DNA of 64,000 bases from assembly GCA_947454155.1 (NCBI GenBank), contig CANGIT010000008.1, positions 1 through 64,000 on the forward strand, read 5' to 3'. The notes under the pieces are model-generated. The model searched no databases, was not told the origin of the DNA, and was given only the letters and a program-made list of their open reading frames with translations. The translations under genes and the position numbers were made by a program. Positions 3,869-14,171 of this stretch are shown here, in pieces (the stretch's first letter is position 1; the number at the start of each line of letters is the position of its first letter). This DNA comes from Chitinophagaceae bacterium (GTDB taxonomy: Bacteria > Bacteroidota > Bacteroidia > Chitinophagales > Chitinophagaceae).

Positions 3869-4052
3869 GAGATGATTTTTTGAGAGGGTTAAATTAGGGA
3901 ATTTTTACGAAAAAGTGGGAAAAGTATGCAAGATGGGTAAGTGATGTAGGTTTGGTTGGATTTGTAGGTTGACCACATTAAGTTATCACCAACAAATGAA
4001 TAATAATAAACTCCAATCTCTAATTACAAATTCCCAATCACAAATAAAAAAA

Positions 4053-4862
4053 TCAAACACCCAAACATCCCTTCATCTCTTCTTGATAAGACCTGGCTAC
4101 TTCCGCGGCCTTATCAGTAAAGTCGGGGCCGTTTCCGGCATAAATGATCGCGCGTGAAGCGTTGATCAAGAGGCCACAATCTTTGTTCATGCCATATTGG
4201 GCTACCTCTTCCAAGCTGCCACCCTGTGCACCTACTCCCGGAACGAGCAGGAAATGATCGGGTATGATTTTACGGATATTTTCCAGTTCGGAGGCCTGCG
4301 TGGCACCCACCACAAACATCAGTTGTTCGCTGCTGCCCCACGAACTGATGGTTTCCAATACTTGTTCGTACAAATGACGGCCATTGCTAAGCTTCAGCAT
4401 TTCAAAATCAAAAGCACCTTTGTTGCTGGTGAGTCCCAATACGATGGTCCATTTGTTCTTGTAAGATAAAAACGGAGCGATGCTGTCTTCGCCCATATAA
4501 GGGGCTACGGTGACCGCATCAAATTTCATTCTTTCAAAAAACGCTTTGGCATAATAGTTTGAAGTGTTGCCGATATCGGCTCTTTTGGCATCGGCGATTT
4601 TTAGATGGGTATCCGGAATGTAGTCGCAGGTTTCTTCCAATGCATCCCAGCCGCGTGCACCCAATGCCTCATAAAATGCGGTGTTGATTTTATAGGAAAC
4701 ACAATGGTCTTTGGTGGCATCAATGATTTGTTTGTTGAACTCCACGATGCCATTAGGACGGCTCTGCAAATGAGCGGGTATTTTTTCGAGGTCGGTATCG
4801 AGGCCTACACAGAGAAAGCTTTGTTTTAATCGTATCTGTTCAACTAATTCAGTTCGGTTCAT
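4053..4862 (-). CDS. pyrF: Orotidine 5'-phosphate decarboxylase
   Basis: Converts OMP to UMP in the last step of de novo pyrimidine synthesis. The protein is 269 residues, the length of the longer (type 2) bacterial enzymes. The catalytic signature DAKRADIGNT lies at residues 91-100, with Lys93 as the proton donor; a phosphate-binding segment LLVPGVGAQGG is near residue 205. It starts one nucleotide after the kmo stop codon, so it is almost certainly translated from the kmo mRNA. That ties a pyrimidine gene to the tryptophan degradation cluster; whether the link is functional or accidental is unknown. Confidence 0.92.
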   Translation of the reverse strand: MNRTELVEQIRLKQSFLCVGLDTDLEKIPAHLQSRPNGIVEFNKQIIDATKDHCVSYKINTAFYEALGARGWDALEETCDYIPDTHLKIADAKRADIGNTSNYYAKAFFERMKFDAVTVAPYMGEDSIAPFLSYKNKWTIVLGLTSNKGAFDFEMLKLSNGRHLYEQVLETISSWGSSEQLMFVVGATQASELENIRKIIPDHFLLVPGVGAQGGSLEEVAQYGMNKDCGLLINASRAIIYAGNGPDFTDKAAEVARSYQEEMKGCLGV

Positions 4863-4863
4863 T

Positions 4864-6216
4864 TTATGGCAATTGTTTTATTTTTTCAAGCATGAGATTT
4901 TCTATCATTTCACTGTTCCAAAGTTCTGTGATATCCGGGGTTTGCATCACCTCATCCATGATGGCTTGCTGGGCATTGCCGCGTTGCAGTGCTTCGCTGT
5001 ATCTTACTTTCGGGCTAAAGGTAACCAGACTATAAGCGGGCGTCCATTTATCGGGATGCTTGGAACTGAAATGGGCTTCAATTTTTTTCTGTAACAAGAA
5101 AACAGAATCGGCTACTTTATCGCGCATCTCCACAAAATTGTTCAAAGCCAGGGTGGCAATGGCATCGCCATCAGGTTTGCGCAACGCTTGGTACTCTTCA
5201 AAAATATTTTTCCATTGGTGATCATGTTTGGTGATGAGGCTGTTCAAAACGGAACAGTCTTCAAACCCGCAATTCATGCCTTGTCCGAAGAAAGGAACAA
5301 TGGCATGCGCCGCATCTCCGATCAATCCAAAGAAATCTCCACGTATCCAGGGGAAGCATCTAACGGTTACAAGAGAGGAAGTGGGATTTTCGGACCATTC
5401 TTTTTCAAAATCTTTCATCAACAAAGAAGCGTCAGAAAATTTTTCATTGAATAACATTCTTGCTTTTTCGGTGGTATCCAGCGAGGTAAATGAGGTTTCA
5501 CCTTCAAAGGGGAAAAACAAAGTACAGGTGAACGTGCCGTCGATATTGGGAAGCGCAATCAGCATGTAATTGCCTCTGGGCCAGATGTGCAGCGCGTTTT
5601 TCTCCATTTGAAAACTGCCATCTGCGGCAGGGGGTATGCTGAGTTCCTTGTATCCGAAGTCGATGTAGTATTGCTGATATTGAAATCTGTCGTGTTGAAG
5701 ATGATGAGAGAGACGGGCGGCGGAGAAGGCACCATCACTGCCAAAAATCAGGTCTTGTTGGGTCGTATGTTTTTCTTCTTTTGTCGTGTTGAAGAAACTG
5801 ATGTTTTTAGTTTTCCAGTCGATGTTGTCGCAACGCTCATTGAAAAACAAATTTGCGCCTTCAGTTTCCGCCAGCGTCATCAAAGTCTTATTGAGTTCGC
5901 CACGGGATACGGAATTGATATATTGACCATCCTTGCCATAAGCCTGATAGGCGGTGGTGCCATCCACGTTATGGATGTAACGGCCATGCATGGGGATACA
6001 AATCTTTTTGATTTCCTCCATTAATCCTACTTCTTCAAGTGCTTTTATGCCTCTGTCGCTTAAGGCCAGGTTGATAGATCTGCCCGCACTCATTTTCTCT
6101 TTTCGTATGTCTGCCCTGCGTTCGTAAACATTCACTTCGTAGCCTTGTTTCCGGAGATATACTGCCAATAGGGATCCTACGAGTCCAGCGCCGATGATGG
6201 TGGTTTGTTTAGACAT
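4864..6216 (-). CDS. kmo: Kynurenine 3-monooxygenase
   Basis: FAD- and NADPH-dependent hydroxylation of L-kynurenine to 3-hydroxykynurenine. From the chosen start (MSKQTTIIGAG) the protein is 450 residues. The Rossmann FAD motif GAGLVG is at residues 9-14, and the second FAD motif GDAAHAIVPFFGQGMNCGFEDC lies about residue 310. The open frame extends 59 codons upstream, but those codons fall in an inverted-repeat spacer and precede the FAD motif where the family normally begins. It lies between kynU and pyrF on the same strand, 1 nt from pyrF. C-terminal hydrophobic segments seen in eukaryotic membrane forms are not evident. Confidence 0.93.
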   Translation of the reverse strand: MSKQTTIIGAGLVGSLLAVYLRKQGYEVNVYERRADIRKEKMSAGRSINLALSDRGIKALEEVGLMEEIKKICIPMHGRYIHNVDGTTAYQAYGKDGQYINSVSRGELNKTLMTLAETEGANLFFNERCDNIDWKTKNISFFNTTKEEKHTTQQDLIFGSDGAFSAARLSHHLQHDRFQYQQYYIDFGYKELSIPPAADGSFQMEKNALHIWPRGNYMLIALPNIDGTFTCTLFFPFEGETSFTSLDTTEKARMLFNEKFSDASLLMKDFEKEWSENPTSSLVTVRCFPWIRGDFFGLIGDAAHAIVPFFGQGMNCGFEDCSVLNSLITKHDHQWKNIFEEYQALRKPDGDAIATLALNNFVEMRDKVADSVFLLQKKIEAHFSSKHPDKWTPAYSLVTFSPKVRYSEALQRGNAQQAIMDEVMQTPDITELWNSEMIENLMLEKIKQLP

Positions 6217-6245
6217 GGAATTATTAATTTCAATAGTTTTAGTGT

Positions 6246-6331
6246 TAGGTAAGTTTAGTAGGTTTTGTGGGTTTGGATTGTTTCGTATCATTTTTATTAT
6301 CAACTTACCAAACCCACCCAACCTATTAAAC
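6246..6331. repeat. Imperfect inverted repeat in the kynU-kmo spacer
   Basis: The left arm at 6253-6276 (GTTTAGTAGGTT...GGGTTTGG) pairs with the right arm at 6308-6331 at 21 of 24 positions, around a ~31-nt loop. It lies between the kynU stop and the kmo start. It could fold as a long RNA hairpin in the polycistronic message, affecting stability or kynU/kmo ratio, or be a dispersed repeat. Similar arms occur in the spacers at 7.64-7.79 kb and 10.36-10.50 kb. Confidence 0.7.
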
Positions 6332-6340
6332 ATGATTTGT

Positions 6341-7621
6341 TCACCCCAACAGATAATGCTGCAATATCTTTCCGAAATTGAACACATCTTCAAAGGTATT
6401 GTACAAAGGCACAGGTGCCACGCGAATCACATTCGGTTCTCTCCAATCGGCGATGACACCATTTTGAATGAGACTTTCAAATACCTTCTTGCCATCTTTC
6501 AGCATCAGCATTGACACCTGACAACCTCTTTCATTTTCATTTTCGGGCGTCAGCACTTCAATAAATTTCTGTGATGTGGTGTGATTGATTTCATGGAGAA
6601 TATGCAAAAGATATCCGCTCAGTAATTTGCCTTTGGCCACAAGATTGTGCATGCCGGCCTCTTGAAATATTTCCAACGAGGCTTTGTGGGCAGCCATGCT
6701 CAGTACGGGCGCGTTGCTCAGCTGCCAGCCCTCTGCAGTAGGTATCGGTAAGAAATCCTTTTCCATTTTGAATCGGTTTTCCTTGTCGTGCCCCCACCAG
6801 CCGGCCAATCTCATCATCGAAGAATCGGTAATGTGACGTTGATGTATAAACGCACCCGAAACACCTCCGGGTCCACTGTTGAGATATTTGTAAGAACACC
6901 AGCAAGCGAAATCCACTTGCCAGTCGTGCAATTCCAATTGCACATTGCCAGCAGCATGTGCCAGGTCGAAGCCACAATAGGCGCCTACTTCATGTGCCAC
7001 TTTGCAAATCTGTTGCATGTCGAACACTTGTCCGCTGTAATAGTTAACACCGCCAATCATCACCAAGGCTACTTCATCCCCATGTTTACGGATGGTATCC
7101 AAAATGGCTTCATTGTCGATATAGGAAGTGCCTTCCAATGGTTCCACTTCGATGATCGCCGTATCGGGGTCAAACCCATGCAATCTTACCTGTGATTGCA
7201 AAGCATACTGGTCGGATGGAAACGCTTTGGCCTCGCAGATGATTTTATAACGTTGTGGCGTAGGGCGGTAAAAACTGATCATCAGCAAATGCAGATTCAC
7301 GGTCAATTGATTCATTACCACCAGTTCTTCGGGCATGGCGCCTACCAGCGGGCTCAGCATGTCAGGAAAAATCTCATGATAACTCAGCCAGGGGTTGCGG
7401 GCATGAAAATGTCCTTCCACACCATAATTGGCCCAGTCTTCGAGTTCATCCAGCACATGATCTTGGGTGGATTTGGGTTGTAATCCGAGCGAATTGCCGG
7501 TGAGATAAATACTGTCTTTCCCATTGATTTGAGGGATATAGAAGCGGTCTCTGAAATGATGCAGTTGATCCTGCTGGTCCTGTTGTTGGGCAAATTCGAG
7601 CGTATTGGAGAAGGTGGTCAT
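6341..7621 (-). CDS. kynU: Kynureninase
   Basis: PLP-dependent cleavage of 3-hydroxykynurenine (or kynurenine) to 3-hydroxyanthranilate (or anthranilate) and alanine. The protein is 426 residues, the family length. The PLP lysine lies in CSYKYLNSGPGG (Lys245). The cofactor-binding Asp and His lie in FDLAHAAGN near 219-226, and the substrate-pocket segment TGNSLGLQPK is at 41-50. It is the gene before kmo on the same strand. The start ATG at 7621 gives the usual N-terminus. Confidence 0.94.
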   Translation of the reverse strand: MTTFSNTLEFAQQQDQQDQLHHFRDRFYIPQINGKDSIYLTGNSLGLQPKSTQDHVLDELEDWANYGVEGHFHARNPWLSYHEIFPDMLSPLVGAMPEELVVMNQLTVNLHLLMISFYRPTPQRYKIICEAKAFPSDQYALQSQVRLHGFDPDTAIIEVEPLEGTSYIDNEAILDTIRKHGDEVALVMIGGVNYYSGQVFDMQQICKVAHEVGAYCGFDLAHAAGNVQLELHDWQVDFACWCSYKYLNSGPGGVSGAFIHQRHITDSSMMRLAGWWGHDKENRFKMEKDFLPIPTAEGWQLSNAPVLSMAAHKASLEIFQEAGMHNLVAKGKLLSGYLLHILHEINHTTSQKFIEVLTPENENERGCQVSMLMLKDGKKVFESLIQNGVIADWREPNVIRVAPVPLYNTFEDVFNFGKILQHYLLG

Positions 7622-7638
7622 GTTGGCAAGTTAATTAT

Positions 7639-7794
7639 GTTTAGTATGTTAAGTGAGTTTGGTAGGTTTTGCAAGCTTACATGAGTTTGTATAATGTATT
7701 GCTTTGGGCGGTTTAGAAATTTAAGTATGTTGTTGGCTTTCGATTTAGAACATACTCAACAATTAAGCAACTAAACATACCCAACTTACTAAAC
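7639..7794. repeat. Inverted-repeat spacer between the RidA fusion gene and kynU
   Basis: The left part (TGTTTAGTATGTTAAGTGAG at about 7638) and the right part (ACTAAACA at about 7787) pair at roughly 19 of 25 positions. A second weaker pair involves AACATACTCAACAATTAAGC. The words overlap those of the kynU-kmo spacer repeat. No coding capacity is seen. Confidence 0.5.
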
Positions 7795-7812
7795 AGACCA
7801 AAGGTTAAATAT

Positions 7813-8682
7813 CTACTCTATCATCGCTATCACTTTCAACTCAATCGCAATCGGTGTCGGCAAACTTTTTACTTCCACTGTGGTTCGGCAAGCTTCCACG
7901 CTGGCAAAATATTCACCATAGATTTTGTTATAGACGGGAAAATCGGCTTTCATATTGGTGAGAAACACTGTGACGTCTATCATTTGGTCCCAGCTGCTGC
8001 CACTGGCTTCCAACACGGCTTTCACATTGGCGAATACCGAATGGCATTCCGCTTCGATGTCATACTTCACAATATTTCCTTTCTCGTCGAGTTCAAGTCC
8101 TGGTATGCTGTTGTCTTTGGCGCTTCGGCTACCTATGCCTGATAGAAACAAGAGGTTTCCCACTTTACGGGCATGAGGATAGGCGCCGAGGGGGGCGGCG
8201 GCGGTAGATGTGTTTATGATTTGTCGTTTGTGGTTTGTTGTTTGTTGTTTGGCAGCTTCGCTTGTTTGTTGTTTGTTGTTTGTTGTCTCTCTGTTCATAA
8301 ACTTTAACCCTTTATAGTTAGAATAATTCAAGTAGTTGATAAATGCGGCAGTTTTATTATTTAATTTTTCTGTCTCTGCTATCAGACTACAAAATTTAGT
8401 TTCATTAAAATATTTTTTATCAAAACCTTGTGTCAATTGTGATTTTAACTCATTGACTGATCCTCTTGAAACACTTAAAAACTGAATAAATTCTAATCTG
8501 CCTGATCTTCCAAATCCTTCAGCTATGTTTTTCATCACTGATTCAGAAGATCTCATCATCTGATCTTTCAAACCAAAATCTCTTTTCAATTCAGATGTTT
8601 TTGTTAACTCGATTATTTCTTTGTTTATTTCTCTAGCTATTTGCCAAATTTCCAGGTCTTCAAATCTTCTGATAGTTGCCAT
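7813..8682 (-). CDS. Four-helix-bundle (S23/IVP) protein fused to RidA-family 2-aminomuconate deaminase
   Basis: A single 289-codon frame without internal stop. Residues 1-128 match the four-helix-bundle family known from 23S rRNA intervening sequences (FEDLEIWQIAR, MRSSESVMKNIAEGFGR, FLSVSRGSVNEL). Residues ~130-155 are a Q/N/T-rich linker encoded by CAAACAAC-type repeat DNA. Residues ~157-289 are a RidA/YjgF enamine deaminase (APLGAYPHARKV, LFLSGIG, catalytic Arg266 in CRTTVEVKSLP). In the kynurenine meta-cleavage route this position is filled by 2-aminomuconate deaminase, and the neighbours (dehydrogenase upstream, kynU downstream) fit. The N-terminal part is markedly AT-rich compared with the RidA part. 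Met129 (8298) could be an independent RidA start. Confidence 0.8.
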   Translation of the reverse strand: MATIRRFEDLEIWQIAREINKEIIELTKTSELKRDFGLKDQMMRSSESVMKNIAEGFGRSGRLEFIQFLSVSRGSVNELKSQLTQGFDKKYFNETKFCSLIAETEKLNNKTAAFINYLNYSNYKGLKFMNRETTNNKQQTSEAAKQQTTNHKRQIINTSTAAAPLGAYPHARKVGNLLFLSGIGSRSAKDNSIPGLELDEKGNIVKYDIEAECHSVFANVKAVLEASGSSWDQMIDVTVFLTNMKADFPVYNKIYGEYFASVEACRTTVEVKSLPTPIAIELKVIAMIE

Positions 8683-8782
8683 CTTTTTTACTTGTATGGT
8701 TGAAAGGGTAGATTGAAATTATTTTGAAATAATATAATGGCAATGAAAAAGAACTGAAGAAAATTCAGAATTCATATAATAA

Positions 8783-8868
8783 GAACACCAAACACCAAAC
8801 CACCAAACACCAAACCACCAAACCACCAAACCACAAACATCAAACCACAAACTACAAACATCAAACAA
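8783..8868. repeat. CA-rich tandem tract (CCAAACACCAAAC-type)
   Basis: Repeated ACCAAACACCAAACC and ACAAACATCAAAC words fill the spacer between the dehydrogenase stop and the four-helix-bundle/RidA start. The tract reaches into the last codons of the dehydrogenase (C-terminus ...CVVV), so repeat growth touches coding sequence. No gene or hairpin is obvious on this strand. Confidence 0.7.
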
Positions 8869-10318
8869 CTACACAAACATTCTTCGCTTCCGTAAAAAAC
8901 CGCATCGCTTCCCATCCGCCTTCTCTGCCTACACCGCTGTTTTTGGTGCCGCCAAACGGAGTGCGTAAATCACGAACCAGCCAGCAGTTGATCCAAACAA
9001 TGCCACATTGTAAATTGCCGGCCAAACGATGTGCCTTTGTAACGTCTTGTGTCCAAATGGTAGCGGACAATCCATAAGAAGAGGCATTGGCCAAAGTCAA
9101 AGCTTCTTCATATGTTTCAAAAGGCTGCAATGTAACAACAGGACCGAAAATCTCTTCGGTATTGGTTATACATTGGGGACCGAGTCCTTCAATGACGGTG
9201 GGTGCAATGAAGAAGCCATCCTTACATCTTCCTTCGGGCTGAAAGGCATTTCCGCCGCATAAAATTGTTCCGCCTTCCTTCCTGGCCAGTTCTATGCAGC
9301 CCATCACTTTATCGTAATGCAATTTGCTGACCACGGCACCTTGTTTTGAGGAATCTTCCAGTGGGTCACCGACTTTCAGTTGTTGAACACGGGTTACAAA
9401 TTCGGTTTTGAATTTTTCGTAGACAGAGGCCTCAATCAAAATGCGACTGCCACACAAACAGATCTGGCCTTGGTTGGCGAATGATGAGCGTAAAGTGGTT
9501 CTCATCATCTTTTCCCAGTCGCAATCGGCGAAGATGATGTTGGGATTTTTACCCCCCAATTCCAATGATAGTTTTTTAAACATGGGAGCAGCTATCGAAG
9601 CAATTCTTTCACCCGCTCTGGTACTGCCGGTAAAGGAAATCGCTTTGATGTCGGGATGCTTCACGATGGCTTCTCCACAATGTGGCCCATCGCCATGTAC
9701 GATATTTAAAACCCCTTGTGGCAAGCCGGCGTGTTGACAGATTTTTGCCAGTAGGTAAGCACTAACGGGTGTTACTTCCGATGGCTTGGCAATGACACAG
9801 TTGCCTGCAGCCAAGGCGGGTGCTATCTTCCAGGTGAAAAGATATATAGGTAAATTCCAGGGAGAGATACAGCCTACAATGCCAATGGGCTGACGCAGTG
9901 TGTAGTTGATGCCGCTGCCGTCCATGGTATGGGATTCGGCCGCGAAATGCATAGCAGCCGTGGCGAAGAAGCGAAAATTGGAAGAGGCTCTTGGAATATC
10001 CACTTCTTGGCTCAGCCATAGCGGCTTTCCGTTGTCGTTAGTTTCGGCCAAAGCCAGAACATCTAACTGCTCATCAATCAGCTGAGCGATGTTATTCAGG
10101 ATTTGAAATCTTTTCTCTGCTGGTGTTTTCGACCAGGCCGGAAACGCTTTTTCTGCAGCGGTAACCGCAGCCTGGATATCTTTTTCGTTGCTATGTGGAA
10201 TTGCTCCGTAAACCTTTCCTGTGGCGGGTTCGATATTGTCGATATATTGTCCGCCTAATGGAGGCTGGAACTTGCCATCAATGTAATTTTCGAGCTGAAA
10301 TGGGATGCTTAAGTCCAT
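8861..10318 (-). CDS. 2-aminomuconic 6-semialdehyde dehydrogenase
   Basis: NAD-dependent aldehyde dehydrogenase, 485 residues, oxidising 2-aminomuconic (or 2-hydroxymuconic) semialdehyde to the acid. The catalytic Glu254 is in LELGGKNPN and the nucleophile Cys287 in NQGQICLCGSR, a sequence characteristic of the AMSDH/HMSDH branch. The NAD motif FTGSTRAGE is near 229-237. Its product is the substrate of the RidA-type deaminase encoded immediately downstream. The start at 10318 (MDLSIPFQLENYIDGKF) matches the usual N-terminus. The neighbouring haaO gene diverges from it. Confidence 0.9.
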   Translation of the reverse strand: MDLSIPFQLENYIDGKFQPPLGGQYIDNIEPATGKVYGAIPHSNEKDIQAAVTAAEKAFPAWSKTPAEKRFQILNNIAQLIDEQLDVLALAETNDNGKPLWLSQEVDIPRASSNFRFFATAAMHFAAESHTMDGSGINYTLRQPIGIVGCISPWNLPIYLFTWKIAPALAAGNCVIAKPSEVTPVSAYLLAKICQHAGLPQGVLNIVHGDGPHCGEAIVKHPDIKAISFTGSTRAGERIASIAAPMFKKLSLELGGKNPNIIFADCDWEKMMRTTLRSSFANQGQICLCGSRILIEASVYEKFKTEFVTRVQQLKVGDPLEDSSKQGAVVSKLHYDKVMGCIELARKEGGTILCGGNAFQPEGRCKDGFFIAPTVIEGLGPQCITNTEEIFGPVVTLQPFETYEEALTLANASSYGLSATIWTQDVTKAHRLAGNLQCGIVWINCWLVRDLRTPFGGTKNSGVGREGGWEAMRFFTEAKNVCVVV

Positions 10319-10356
10319 GCGATAAAGGTAGGGAAATCTTGGGTGCGTTTTGACGA

Positions 10357-10502
10357 TAAATTTGGTAGGTTTAGTATGTTTGGCAGGTTTGAAACTGATG
10401 CTTTTTTTGAATTTGATGAATATAGTTTGTTTCTTTTTTTACTTTAATCAATAAACTTTTCAAATCAACCCAACCTAGTAAACCTAGTAAACCTAGCATA
10501 AC
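10357..10502. repeat. Inverted-repeat spacer between the dehydrogenase and haaO
   Basis: The left words TTTGGTAGGTTTAGTATGTT (about 10358) and the right words AACCTAGTAAACCTAGTAAA (about 10473) are imperfect reverse complements, and TTTGAAA pairs with TTTCAAA. This is the divergent promoter region of the two arms of the kynurenine cluster, so the repeat may overlay the promoters. No clean TAnnTTTG box was found in front of haaO. Confidence 0.5.
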
Positions 10503-10562
10503 CTTTTTTCTACCGTAGACTATTTACATAAAAATTCCTACCTTCCAACCCAAAAAAATCAT

Positions 10563-11087
10563 ATGGCAGTTGCAGCTCCCTTCAACCTGAAAAAATGGAT
10601 AGATGACCACCGCGATTTGCTCAAACCTCCTGTGGGCAATCAATGTGTCTATAAAGACGCTGAAAATTTCATCGTCATGGTTGTGGGTGGACCCAATTCC
10701 CGGAAGGATTATCATTACAATGAAAGCGAAGAATTGTTTTATCAGATTGAGGGCGACATTGTGGTCAAAATCATCGATGAAGGTCAGCCTAAAGACATCC
10801 ATATCAAAGAAGGTGACATGTTTTTACTGCCGGCTAAAACACCACATTCACCACAAAGAGGTCCGAATACGGTTGGTCTGGTCATTGAAAAAGTAAGGGC
10901 TACAGAAGAAGACGGGTTCCTGTGGTATTGTGAAAACTGCGGCAACAAACTGTATGAAGAATATCTGCATGTCACCGACATAGTTAAACAATTGCCTCCG
11001 GTGATGGAAGGTTTCTATACGGATGAGCATAAACGCACCTGTTCGAAATGCGGATCGGTGATGGCGGCGCCGGTGAGAAAAGGATAG
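10563..11087 (+). CDS. haaO: 3-hydroxyanthranilate 3,4-dioxygenase
   Basis: Non-haem Fe(II) ring-cleaving dioxygenase that turns 3-hydroxyanthranilate into 2-amino-3-carboxymuconate semialdehyde. 174 residues in a single cupin domain. The catalytic iron ligands His51, Glu57 and His95 are at the positions known for the bacterial enzyme. A C-terminal rubredoxin-like second iron site is intact (Cys123, Cys126, Cys160, Cys163). It is the first gene of the plus-strand arm and is followed by the decarboxylase that consumes its product. Confidence 0.95.
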   Translation: MAVAAPFNLKKWIDDHRDLLKPPVGNQCVYKDAENFIVMVVGGPNSRKDYHYNESEELFYQIEGDIVVKIIDEGQPKDIHIKEGDMFLLPAKTPHSPQRGPNTVGLVIEKVRATEEDGFLWYCENCGNKLYEEYLHVTDIVKQLPPVMEGFYTDEHKRTCSKCGSVMAAPVRKG

Positions 11088-11172
11088 TTTGTTTGTTGTT
11101 TATTGTTTATTGTTACGCATTGCGATTATTCTCCAAACAACAAACAACAAACAACAAACAACAAACAACAAA
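11086..11172. repeat. Long A/C versus T/G inverted repeat between haaO and ACMSD
   Basis: The haaO stop codon runs into a TTTGTTTGTTGTTTATTG arm (11088-11114), followed by a ~20-nt spacer and a CAAACAACAAACAACAAAC arm (11134-11172). The transcript could form a long hairpin of A-U and G-U/G-C pairs just upstream of the decarboxylase start codon. The right arm is made of the same CAAACAA words as the linker of the four-helix-bundle/RidA fusion. Confidence 0.7.
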
Positions 11173-11183
11173 AAAATCATTTC

Positions 11184-12176
11184 TTGAAACTCGACATTCA
11201 CACCCATATCATGCCGGATAAAATGCCCAACTGGGTGGCCAAATTCGGTTATGGCGAATTCATCCATTTGGAACATCGCAACTGCAAGGCCTGCATGATG
11301 AAAGGAGATAAGCTGTTTCGGGAAGTGGAGGACAATTGTTTCAGTGCGGAGGAGCGATTGAAAGACATGTTGGACACTAACGTCGACGTGCAGGTGCTTT
11401 CCACCATTCCGGTTCTTTTCAATTATTGGGCAAAGCCGTCCGACGGATTGGAGACTTCCCGTTTTTTTAATGACCATATTGCTGAAACTGTTTCACATGA
11501 CGCCCGACATTTCATTGGACTTGGCACTGTGCCTTTGCAGGATGTGGATCTGGCCATTGCTGAAATGGAACGCTGTATGCAAGAGTTGAAAATGCCCGGG
11601 TTGGAAATAGGCAGCAACATCAACGGGAGAAATCTGGGCGATGAATCTTTTCATCCTTTCTATAAAAGAGCGGAAGAACTCGGTTGTGCCTTGTTTGTTC
11701 ATCCCTGGGAAATGATGGGAGAGGAGCAAATGCAAAAATATTGGTTGCCCTGGCTGGTGGGCATGCCTGCTGAAACTTCACGTGCCATTTGTTCGCTGAT
11801 ATTTTCGGGAGTATTTGAAAAATTCCCCAAACTAAGAGTGGCTTTTGCCCATGGAGGCGGTTCATTTCCCCTGACAATCGGCAGAATTGAACATGGTTTC
11901 CATGTGCGTCCCGATTTAGTGGCCATTGATAATCCTGTCCATCCTCGTGATTATATCGGACGCTTCTGGATTGATAGTCTGGTGCATGACGAAAAGGCGA
12001 TGCAGTATATTGTTGAGCTGATGGGCGAAGACAAGATTTGTATGGGCAGCGATTATCCGTTCCCGCTAGGTGAACATCGCCCCGGAAGTTTGATCGAAGC
12101 CATGAATTTCAGTCAACAACAAAAAGAAAAACTGTTGTATAAAAACGGAATGGAATGGTTGGGTTTGAAAATGTAG
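11184..12176 (+). CDS. 2-amino-3-carboxymuconate-6-semialdehyde decarboxylase (ACMSD)
   Basis: Zinc amidohydrolase-fold decarboxylase converting ACMS to 2-aminomuconic semialdehyde, the committed step away from quinolinate and NAD. From the TTG at 11184 the protein is 330 residues and begins LKLDIHTH, aligning with the MKIDIHSH start of animal ACMSD. The metal ligands are the HTH pair (residues 6 and 8), His in FVHPWEMMG and Asp in MGSDYPFPLG; AFAHGGGSFP holds the catalytic His. The frame is open back to another TTG at 11103, but that stretch is translated repeat DNA. Non-ATG initiation just behind a strong hairpin suggests low or controlled translation. Confidence 0.93.
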   Translation: MKLDIHTHIMPDKMPNWVAKFGYGEFIHLEHRNCKACMMKGDKLFREVEDNCFSAEERLKDMLDTNVDVQVLSTIPVLFNYWAKPSDGLETSRFFNDHIAETVSHDARHFIGLGTVPLQDVDLAIAEMERCMQELKMPGLEIGSNINGRNLGDESFHPFYKRAEELGCALFVHPWEMMGEEQMQKYWLPWLVGMPAETSRAICSLIFSGVFEKFPKLRVAFAHGGGSFPLTIGRIEHGFHVRPDLVAIDNPVHPRDYIGRFWIDSLVHDEKAMQYIVELMGEDKICMGSDYPFPLGEHRPGSLIEAMNFSQQQKEKLLYKNGMEWLGLKM

Positions 12177-12195
12177 AAAGCATATGTTTATATTT

Positions 12196-12311
12196 CCAGT
12201 ACCCAGTATCCAGTACCCAGTATCCAGTACCCAGTATCCAGTATCCAGTATCCAGTATCCAGTATCCAGTACCCAGTATCCAGTACCCAGTATCAAGTAT
12301 CCATTATCCAG
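12196..12311. repeat. Heptamer tandem array (CCAGTAC/CCAGTAT)
   Basis: About sixteen 7-nt units, mostly alternating CCAGTAC and CCAGTAT, degrading at the right end (CAAGTAT, CCATTAT). The array fills the convergent space between the ACMSD and mrp genes. There are no unique spacers, so it is not a CRISPR array. It is open in several frames on both strands, producing meaningless repetitive open frames. Confidence 0.9.
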
Positions 12312-12317
12312 CAATCC

Positions 12318-13382
12318 CTATTTCCCCGCATTACTCACCGCAATGGCTCTCACTGTGTTTCCGGCAAATTCCAGAAAGGCATTTTTCGACGTCTCCTCAA
12401 GGCCTATCATGGCAGGAACGCCTTCGTCGCCACCTTCTCTGATGGATTGAACCAAAGGAATTTGACCCAGCAATGGAATGTCGAATTCTTCTGCGAGATT
12501 CTTTCCTCCATTTTTTCCAAAGATGTAATATTTATTGTCGGGCAATTCAGCTGGTGTGAAGTAACTCATGTTTTCCACCAGTCCCAATACAGGTACTTTC
12601 AATTGTGCTTGTCCAAACATGGCAACACCTTTTTTGGCGTCTGCGATGGCCACCAGTTGCGGGGTGGTGACCACCACAACTCCGGTAACCGGTACAGATT
12701 GCAAAATCGTAAGGTGAATATCTCCGGTGCCGGGAGGCATATCAATCACCAGGTAGTCGAGTTCACCCCATTCCACATCGGTAACAAACTGACGGATGGC
12801 GCTGCTGACCATCGGGCCTCTCCAGATGACGGCTTGCTTCTCATCAATCAGTAATCCAATGCTCATCACTTTGATACCATGCTTTTCAATGGGCTGAATC
12901 ATGCCTTTTCCGTTCACTTCACGCATCAAGGGTCTTTCGCCTCTGATGCCGAACATGATGTGCTGACTGGGTCCGTAAATGTCGGCGTCCATCAAACCCA
13001 CTTTGGCACCGCTTTCTCCCAAAGCCAGGGCTAGATTGGCTGCGATAGTGCTTTTGCCAACACCTCCCTTGCCGCTTACTACAGCAATGATATTTTTTAC
13101 CCCACCCAACACAGTGCCAGGATCGAGGCGGTTGGTGCTGGTATTGCTGGTGAAGTTGACGGTCACTTCCGCGCTGGGATTCACCATCAGTTTGATCGCG
13201 TTGACACAGGCATTTTTCATCATCTCCTTCATCGGGCACGCCGGTGTGGTGAGTACCAATGTAAAAGAGACGGCATTGCCTTCGATGACAATGTCTTTGA
13301 TCATGTTCAAGGTGACCAGGTCTTTGCCCAAATCGGGTTCCTGAACGTTGCTCAATGCCTGAAGTATGGATTCGGTAGTCAT
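12318..13382 (-). CDS. Mrp/ApbC-type iron-sulfur carrier ATPase
   Basis: 354 residues, predicted to carry and transfer Fe-S clusters. Residues 1-80 form a MIP18/DUF59-like domain (LSNVQEPDLGKDLVTL, TTPACPMK). The P-loop domain begins near 97 with the deviant Walker A motif SGKGGVGKST (103-112). DYLVIDMPPGTGD is the Walker B region. The C-terminal CxxC pair that binds the bridging cluster in many Mrp proteins is not present after ENMSYFT; the sequence reads PAELPDNKYYIFGK instead, a variant I recall from other Bacteroidota. It stands alone, with a TAATTTTG box 37 nt upstream. Confidence 0.9.
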   Translation of the reverse strand: MTTESILQALSNVQEPDLGKDLVTLNMIKDIVIEGNAVSFTLVLTTPACPMKEMMKNACVNAIKLMVNPSAEVTVNFTSNTSTNRLDPGTVLGGVKNIIAVVSGKGGVGKSTIAANLALALGESGAKVGLMDADIYGPSQHIMFGIRGERPLMREVNGKGMIQPIEKHGIKVMSIGLLIDEKQAVIWRGPMVSSAIRQFVTDVEWGELDYLVIDMPPGTGDIHLTILQSVPVTGVVVVTTPQLVAIADAKKGVAMFGQAQLKVPVLGLVENMSYFTPAELPDNKYYIFGKNGGKNLAEEFDIPLLGQIPLVQSIREGGDEGVPAMIGLEETSKNAFLEFAGNTVRAIAVSNAGK

Positions 13383-13418
13383 GATTTCAATGTTTTGTTA
13401 AATGAAGCCGGCGCGGCG

Positions 13419-13426
13419 CAAAATTA
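13419..13426 (-). promoter_or_regulatory. Bacteroidota -7 promoter box of mrp
   Basis: TAATTTTG on the minus strand fits the TAnnTTTG consensus, 37 nt before the mrp ATG. No clear TTTG at the -33 spacing was found. Confidence 0.4.
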
Positions 13427-13529
13427 ATCAATGAGCGCCGTTCTTTGAATAATAAATCGCGAAAATAAACCGCATAGTTATTTTTTGTACTATTGCAGTA
13501 TTGCTTTTGCTGAAAATACTTGACGCATA

Positions 13530-14171
13530 ATGACCAAAACAATCAGGCTTATCATTTTCCTTTTGTTGATTACTCCTGTTGCCGCCCATGCACAGTTTGA
13601 GACTTTCAAAGACTCAGTTGTACAGTTGTACGGACTGGTGATGACGGCCGATAGTCTCAAAGGCCTGCCTGCGGTAAGTATCATGGTCAAAGGCCAGAAT
13701 CGTGGTACCATTTCCAACGATCAGGGTGTTTTTAGTATTGTTGTCCTGAAGGGAGACAAGGTAGAATTCAGCAGTGTTGGCTTCAAGTCGAAAATCATTG
13801 AAGTGCCCAGAGACATTCAGGGTAATCAATACAGCATGATACAGCTGATGGTCAACGATACTGTCTATCTGCCCGCCACCATTATCAAGCAGAGACCCAC
13901 ACGCGAACAGTTCGAACGAGATTTTGTCAATACCAAGGTGCCCGATGACGATCTTGAAATAGCCCGTCAAAACAACAACGTCGCTACCCGAAGATTGCTG
14001 ATGACTTCGGTACCGGCAGACGGCAGTGAGGCTACATCGCAGTTCTTGCGTCAACGCACACAGAAAATGTATTATTCCGGACAAGTACCACCGATGAATA
14101 TTTTCAACCCCTTTGCGTGGAATGAATTTATCAAAGCCTGGAAGAGGGGAGATTACAAGAAGAAGAATTAG
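13530..14171 (+). CDS. Exported protein with carboxypeptidase-like regulatory domain
   Basis: 213 residues. The signal peptide covers about residues 1-22 (hydrophobic LIIFLLLITP, cleavage after AHAQ). Residues ~35-100 form a CarboxypepD-regulatory-like beta sandwich (YGLVMTADSLKGLPAVSIMV, GTISNDQGVFSIVV, VEFSSVGFKSK), the domain found at the N-terminus of SusC-like receptors but here alone. The tail is basic and polar (RPTREQFERDF...). Probably a periplasmic or outer-membrane-associated protein of unknown role. It lies upstream of aroK. Confidence 0.75.
   Translation: MTKTIRLIIFLLLITPVAAHAQFETFKDSVVQLYGLVMTADSLKGLPAVSIMVKGQNRGTISNDQGVFSIVVLKGDKVEFSSVGFKSKIIEVPRDIQGNQYSMIQLMVNDTVYLPATIIKQRPTREQFERDFVNTKVPDDDLEIARQNNNVATRRLLMTSVPADGSEATSQFLRQRTQKMYYSGQVPPMNIFNPFAWNEFIKAWKRGDYKKKN

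Follow-up and report, generated by a model that had tools for sequence, protein, structure and literature searches.

What is a four-helix-bundle gene doing at the front of a deaminase of tryptophan breakdown? In the 64,000-nucleotide stretch analysed here (the window; positions 1 to 64,000 of contig CANGIT010000008.1 of a Chitinophagaceae bacterium, assembly GCA_947454155.1), the open reading frame at 7813-8682 on the minus strand was described by the initial annotation as an in-frame fusion of an S23/IVP bundle protein with the RidA deaminase of the kynurenine pathway. It was proposed that the junction is intergenic repeat DNA that became coding, that the AT-rich bundle part was acquired, that such genes may insert at intergenic repeats, and that a bundle domain may have been placed on an otherwise trimeric enzyme. 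The observation is correct. Its interpretation, however, is only partly supported by our data, because the repeats do not look like a pre-existing landing site but stand in inverted orientation on both sides of many S23 genes and seem to travel with them.

The fused S23-deaminase reading frame

We first asked whether the frame is indeed continuous. The ORF comprises 289 codons, begins with ATG and contains no internal stop. Profile searches assigned residues 8-110 to Pfam PF05635 (23S_rRNA_IVP; 103.6 bits, cut-off 33.8) and residues 160-287 to PF01042 (83.7 bits, cut-off 27.3), while TIGR02436 was matched with 94.5 bits (cut-off 24). The best solved relative of the C-terminal part is the 2-aminomuconate deaminase AmnE (6izh; E 6e-23), which is also the best fold match; in the Foldseek search, in which the bundle was not queried separately, the 50 rows shown are RidA-fold matches. 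Residues R266 and E281, which have a catalytic role in this family, are invariant in 14 fused proteins, so that deaminase activity is inferred from sequence and context. The gene lies between kynureninase and an aldehyde dehydrogenase (ALDH) gene (8861-10318, minus strand; PF00171, with 2-hydroxymuconic semialdehyde dehydrogenase as the best NCBIfam match, below its cut-off), with 3-hydroxyanthranilate dioxygenase beyond.

The S23 part (8308-8682, minus strand, residues 1-125) has a GC content of 29.6% (GC3 24), the linker (8224-8307, minus strand, about residues 126-153) 35.6%, and the RidA part with its stop codon (7813-8223, minus strand) 47.8% (GC3 53.7), which upholds the composition claim. 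In an AlphaFold2 model (pTM 0.47, from a 14-row alignment) four long helices are predicted at residues 11-29, 36-58, 62-88 and 94-120, with pLDDT values of 81-95 in 10-residue blocks after the first, followed by a stretch with values below 50 (residues 125-167) and a RidA fold with block values of 61-83. The bundle ends near residue 120-125 and the linker runs to about residue 153. An in-frame ATG at codon 129 (8296-8298, minus strand) is a possible internal start for RidA alone, and is present in 9 of 9 intact members of the two S23 subclades of genomes G000 and G030 (G-numbers denote genomes and L-numbers individual loci).

Recurrence and mosaic divergence of the fusion

To determine whether the fusion is an assembly or sequencing error, we searched 93 genomes of the genus and found a match at E<=1e-40 in 54. 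Of these 54 loci, 15 carry the fusion as one open frame of at least 250 aa, three (G095, G012 and G068) carry a broken or remnant S23 in which the linker is nevertheless open, and 36 have RidA alone with no S23 hit upstream. We counted G006 as fused although its RidA end is broken beside an unknown base, and G095 has a stop inside S23. A search of 294 genomes of the family added two fusions in another genus (G640 and G445), and named MAG records two more (L063 and L065), giving 19 in all. The named records with the fusion are Chitinophagaceae, Bacteroidetes and Bacteroidota MAGs, whereas RidA-only matches include Ferruginibacter and Terrimonas. Linkers vary from 45 to 159 nt (15-53 codons), yet all 19 are open in the coding frame, while frame 1 holds stops in 17 and frame 2 in 16. 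The latter result also ruled out the idea that A/C-rich arms are free of stops in every frame, which is true only of pure A/C units. Although the named fused records are MAGs, an error that joined two genes is contradicted by these data. The initial annotation had named as evidence against it relatives in which the two are always separate genes with a stop codon here, a condition that fails because the fusion recurs in 19 genomes; one genome of another genus, G611, does carry a separate S23 gene with a stop before RidA at this site, but of a different S23 lineage, and with GTTAATC-type repeats on both sides as judged by eye. This fits repeated insertion, but it also means that the site itself may attract insertions.

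The S23 parts of all 19 fusions form one clade (95/86) apart from 38 free-standing S23 genes and from the S23 of G611; before the last four were added, 15 of 15 grouped at 97/87. Loci L004, L005 and L151 were dropped from these trees, as were S23 matches covering under 80 model positions, among them L006, from the S23 set, whereas the identical L088 and L118 were both kept. A tree of RidA alone was too short to resolve. On a tree of ALDH plus RidA the fused state needs 12 changes at best, at least 6 of them forced by well-supported branches, but this tree cannot tell loss from transfer, five of its rows have under half the columns and its bootstrap had not settled. Fusion is not scattered over S23 genes at random: in the incomplete listing for the genus every S23 hit with an open frame over 200 aa was a RidA fusion, and the incomplete listing for the phylum shows one other long frame, of 230 aa, at G175 (contig C4, 2034662) in another class, which is maybe a different fusion. 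A search of plasmids with the fused protein returned no record covering 80% of it. A second S23 match lies directly beyond the fused gene of G006 (contig C27, 3231-3542; L012), on a short contig with unknown bases.

Synonymous divergence is mosaic in 6 of 15 pairs. For G008-G079 it is 0.24 in ALDH, 0.01 in S23 and 0.20 in RidA, and for G011-G108 0.37, 0.04 and 0.60, with similar patterns in G100-G011, G100-G108 and G030-G011. In contrast, G030 and G095 are close in RidA (0.23) but differ in S23 (0.73). Fisher tests on rounded counts gave p values of 2e-7, 5e-15 and 6e-10 for G008-G079, G011-G108 and G030-G095, respectively; most other pairs are near saturation in all parts. Strong synonymous constraint as the cause of the low S23 divergence was rejected, because other pairs reach 0.65-0.79. 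In G011-G108 near-identity runs from the end of ALDH to the end of S23 and then falls to about 80-87%, as in a gene-conversion tract. The S23 segment is thus exchanged partly on its own.

These data also bear on the possibility that S23 was recruited for a host function, for example to cluster the deaminase, in which case the patchy pattern would reflect an ancestral fusion plus many losses. The S23 part is under purifying selection (dN/dS 0.05-0.15 in 11 of 12 pairs, 0.54 in the near-identical G008-G079; RidA 0.01-0.06 in 8 pairs) and the fusion is kept even in G064, where the composition has equalised (S23 42.4% and RidA 43.2% GC). Moreover, 8 of 19 fused loci have no ATG between S23 residue 110 and RidA, and five of these (G002, G008, G006, G445 and L063) have no ATG, GTG or TTG, so that the deaminase there is inferred most likely to exist only as fusion protein. 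S23p of Xanthomonas is reported to be a homopentamer (PMC4990558). RidA proteins are trimers, and S23 pentamers tethered to them by a flexible linker could give large assemblies or cages, which remains an idea, as does any effect on the deaminase trimer. However, 36 of 54 loci do without the S23 part, three carry it broken or as a remnant, it is exchanged independently of its enzyme in some pairs, and the linker evolves much more freely (dN/dS 0.18-0.96 in the 11 of 12 pairs where it could be computed). We therefore consider an adaptive domain fusion unlikely.

Inverted heptad arms around S23 genes

To gain insight into the origin of the linker we examined the repeats at its junction. The CAAACAA-type repeats noted at about residues 130-155 by the initial annotation are one half of an inverted pair. 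Upstream of S23 stands an array of GTTTGGT-type 7-bp repeats (8783-8872, minus strand), which overlaps the end of the ALDH gene, and downstream stands its complement, an array of AACAAAC-type repeats (8220-8289, minus strand) inside the coding sequence, which is now the linker; the borders of both were read by eye. The inverted score of the window locus is 67, against at most 28 in 40 shuffles, and in its RNA the arms are predicted to pair into one long stem enclosing the S23 ORF (-163.8 kcal/mol, z -4.9, 0 of 20 shuffles as good). The leader also contains a small hairpin-like motif, CTGAATTTTCTTCAG (8754-8768, minus strand), seen by eye in several congeners (G000, G106, G095 and G011, with variants in G030, G100 and G108). 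Inverted scores beat the shuffles in 11 of 15 fused loci, but not in G006, G098, G079 and G064.

Free-standing S23 genes are framed alike. In the genus and relatives 29 of 41 reached an inverted score of >=30, compared to 13 of 281 control genes (Fisher p 7e-22), while direct repeats reached this score in only 2 of 41. The threshold was set after the scores of the fused loci had been seen, L088 and L118 both count among the 41, some S23 starts were taken as the first M or the profile start so that arm distances are approximate, and seven of the 13 control hits have the length of kynureninase (424-426 aa), the gene beside this very locus. Among 30 phylum loci, taken from the best hits, 12 reached the threshold compared to 1 of 64 controls; thus 12 of 41 and 18 of 30 S23 genes, respectively, fall below it. 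Period 7 was the best repeat period on both sides in 17 of 40 S23 genes of the genus and relatives (L088 left out), 11 of 15 fused loci, 3 of 30 phylum loci and 7 of 296 controls. The heptads differ between loci, and arrays downstream alone are common in controls (43 of 296), so arms are not unique to S23.

A tblastn search of plasmids with an S23 query hit 45 records, mostly of cyanobacteria. Of 12 loci that we chose from this list, not at random, 11 have inverted arms better than all 200 shuffles (scores 29-63); Anabaena sp. 90 (L207) does not, and Pseudanabaena (L206) scores higher as a direct (132) than as an inverted repeat (50). None of 64 control genes, which come from two of these plasmids and were scored with wider flanks, reached 29. 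The cassettes lie inside gene clusters, between nrdB and nrdA, between cas6 and cas4, between cas10 and cmr3, and beside conjugation genes; L206, L207 and L212 lie within CRISPR-Cas operons (cas6/cas4 and cas10/cmr3). In 9 of 12 loci S23 points the same way as its neighbours, whereas in L202, L203 and L209 it points against both and therefore does not always ride on its neighbours' transcript.

One insertion is clean. The cassette of Trichormus variabilis plasmid C (L210) and of Scytonema NIES-4073 (L218) is missing from plasmids of Nostoc linckia NIES-25 and Tolypothrix PCC 7601 (L216 and L217) with 98% identical flanks; four further records show the same 1698-base spacing in the search listing. 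The filled site is 428 bp longer, holds only S23 and the arms, and repeats TAAT (or GTAAT) on both sides, while the empty site has it once. Nostoc C052 keeps what looks like a decayed remnant. In contrast, five other filled loci (L202, L204, L208, L211 and L212) compared with S23-less relatives show presence/absence with altered borders and no clear duplication, and no clean empty site was found at the RidA locus itself. S23 is the only annotated CDS in the inserted stretch of L210, and no recombinase or reverse transcriptase lies in the cassette.

Our preferred explanation, to which we assign a probability of about 0.8, is that the S23 half of the gene is a former free-standing cassette, a short mobile element of one S23 ORF between inverted arrays of 7-bp repeats. 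In this view it entered the spacer between the ALDH and deaminase genes, the S23 frame came to run through the downstream arm, whose repeats became a disordered linker, and this single fused lineage was then passed between Chitinophagaceae, with the S23 segment exchanged partly independently of its flanks, and was broken or lost several times. The product would most likely be one ~32 kDa fusion protein, and in some lineages RidA alone could also be made from an internal ATG. Our data demonstrate the fusion, its recurrence, the single S23 clade, the excess of inverted heptad arms over controls, the mosaic divergence in some pairs and, for a related cassette on a cyanobacterial plasmid, one clean empty and filled site with a short target duplication. 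That the RidA locus arose by the same kind of insertion, that the arms act in RNA or DNA during movement, that the full-length protein is translated and that it is an active deaminase are inferences, and neither how the cassette moves nor that S23 drives it follows from these data.

There are two further alternatives. The arms might be only RNA-processing, terminator or slippage-prone structures, with the gene spreading by ordinary homologous recombination through its flanks, consistent with the G011-G108 tract and with the abundance of heptad arrays in intergenic DNA. This does not explain the insertion of arms plus ORF with a 4-5 bp duplication in 98% identical flanks, nor do the three loci in which S23 points against both neighbours favour it, and we regard it as improbable. 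It is more plausible, though still less likely than not, that the cassette is moved in trans by a transposase or reverse transcriptase elsewhere in the cell, with S23 as cargo as in MITE-type elements. In support of this, the cassette holds only S23, heptad arrays and hairpins without S23 exist, and the S23p borne by the Coxiella intervening sequence is reported as probably not made in vivo (PMC4990558). Repeat hairpins without S23 stand at L222 and in the spacer of G102 (L050), sites where relatives carry the cassette, and a CAGTATC array without S23 lies at window positions 12184-12310. The same heptad frames the S23 gene on contig C23 of this genome (L003, inverted score 141); a 3-unit pattern gives 42 partly overlapping hits in this genome and any hit in only 13 of 93 genomes of the genus, its own included. 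Against the passenger model, the S23 ORF recurs between such arms in Bacteroidota and cyanobacteria and is under purifying selection at RidA.

Relation to rRNA intervening sequences and heptamer repeats

The closest described systems are the intervening sequences of 23S rRNA that carry an S23p/IVP ORF, as in Coxiella and Leptospira. They share an S23-family ORF inside a stem of inverted ends, a similar size (428 nt in Coxiella), a GC content lower than that of the genome, tandem heptamers just before the S23p ORF and a scattered distribution (PMC4990558). The present cassettes differ in lying between or fused to protein-coding genes, and an Rfam search of window positions 4000-14000 returned no match at gathering score; their arms are longer 7-bp arrays with different heptads at different loci, and S23 can point against its neighbours. 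The Coxiella sequence is cut by RNase III, which for the cassettes described here could be suggested only by analogy. The function and origin of rRNA intervening sequences were called unclear in 2016, over 25 years after their discovery, with a mobile-element origin proposed but not shown, and the authors find that the Coxiella S23p is probably not made in vivo and consider that the RNA matters more (PMC4990558), which speaks against a driving role of the protein there.

Free-standing four-helix-bundle S23 genes (PF05635, TIGR02436) have the same family assignment and, in many loci, the same inverted frame, but are separate genes with their own stop, whereas the 2-aminomuconate deaminase AmnE shares domain, fold and operon context but not the N-terminal bundle and linker. 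Avd of diversity-generating retroelements is a relative of the bundle. Intergenic heptamer repeats of Bacteroidetes, Cyanobacteria and Beggiatoaceae are likewise strain-specific 7-bp units with suspected horizontal spread, but were described mostly as direct repeats near start codons for which "no mechanism is evident", and the term S23 does not occur in the main text of that paper (PMC4679880). MITE and REPIN elements are short, have inverted ends and many copies and lack an internal transposase; here a conserved ORF sits inside and the arms are tandem heptads. Within the open-access literature searched, we found no paper that links S23 genes to inverted heptad arms outside rRNA. A one-gene S23 cassette among protein genes, with a clean empty site, joins the question of the intervening sequences to that of the heptamer repeats and makes both testable in cultured cyanobacteria, and the RidA fusion shows such a cassette becoming part of an enzyme. 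A further possibility, which we regard as less likely than not and which the Coxiella data weaken, is that S23 with its arms is a widespread class of very small (about 0.4-0.6 kb) one-gene mobile elements, of which the rRNA intervening sequences would be one branch and the heptamer arrays of these genomes the debris. The S23 protein would then help its own spread, perhaps by binding the arm RNA, and at RidA the element would have made itself hard to delete, because in part of the fused lineages the deaminase has no ATG of its own.

Repeat-like DNA also occurs elsewhere near the locus. Inverted, repeat-like DNA with no evident gene inside lies between kynureninase and the fused gene (7640-7800), and by eye is possibly an empty cassette. 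An AACAAAC array without S23 at 11103-11170 lies in frame at the start of the amidohydrolase (ACMSD-like) ORF 11103-12176, so that its listed N-terminus is repeat-coded and the true start may be further in. Finally, the KMO-like ORF at 4864-6393, whose best NCBIfam hit is VioC, below its cut-off, has a long leader before MSKQTTIIG that reads through intergenic DNA.
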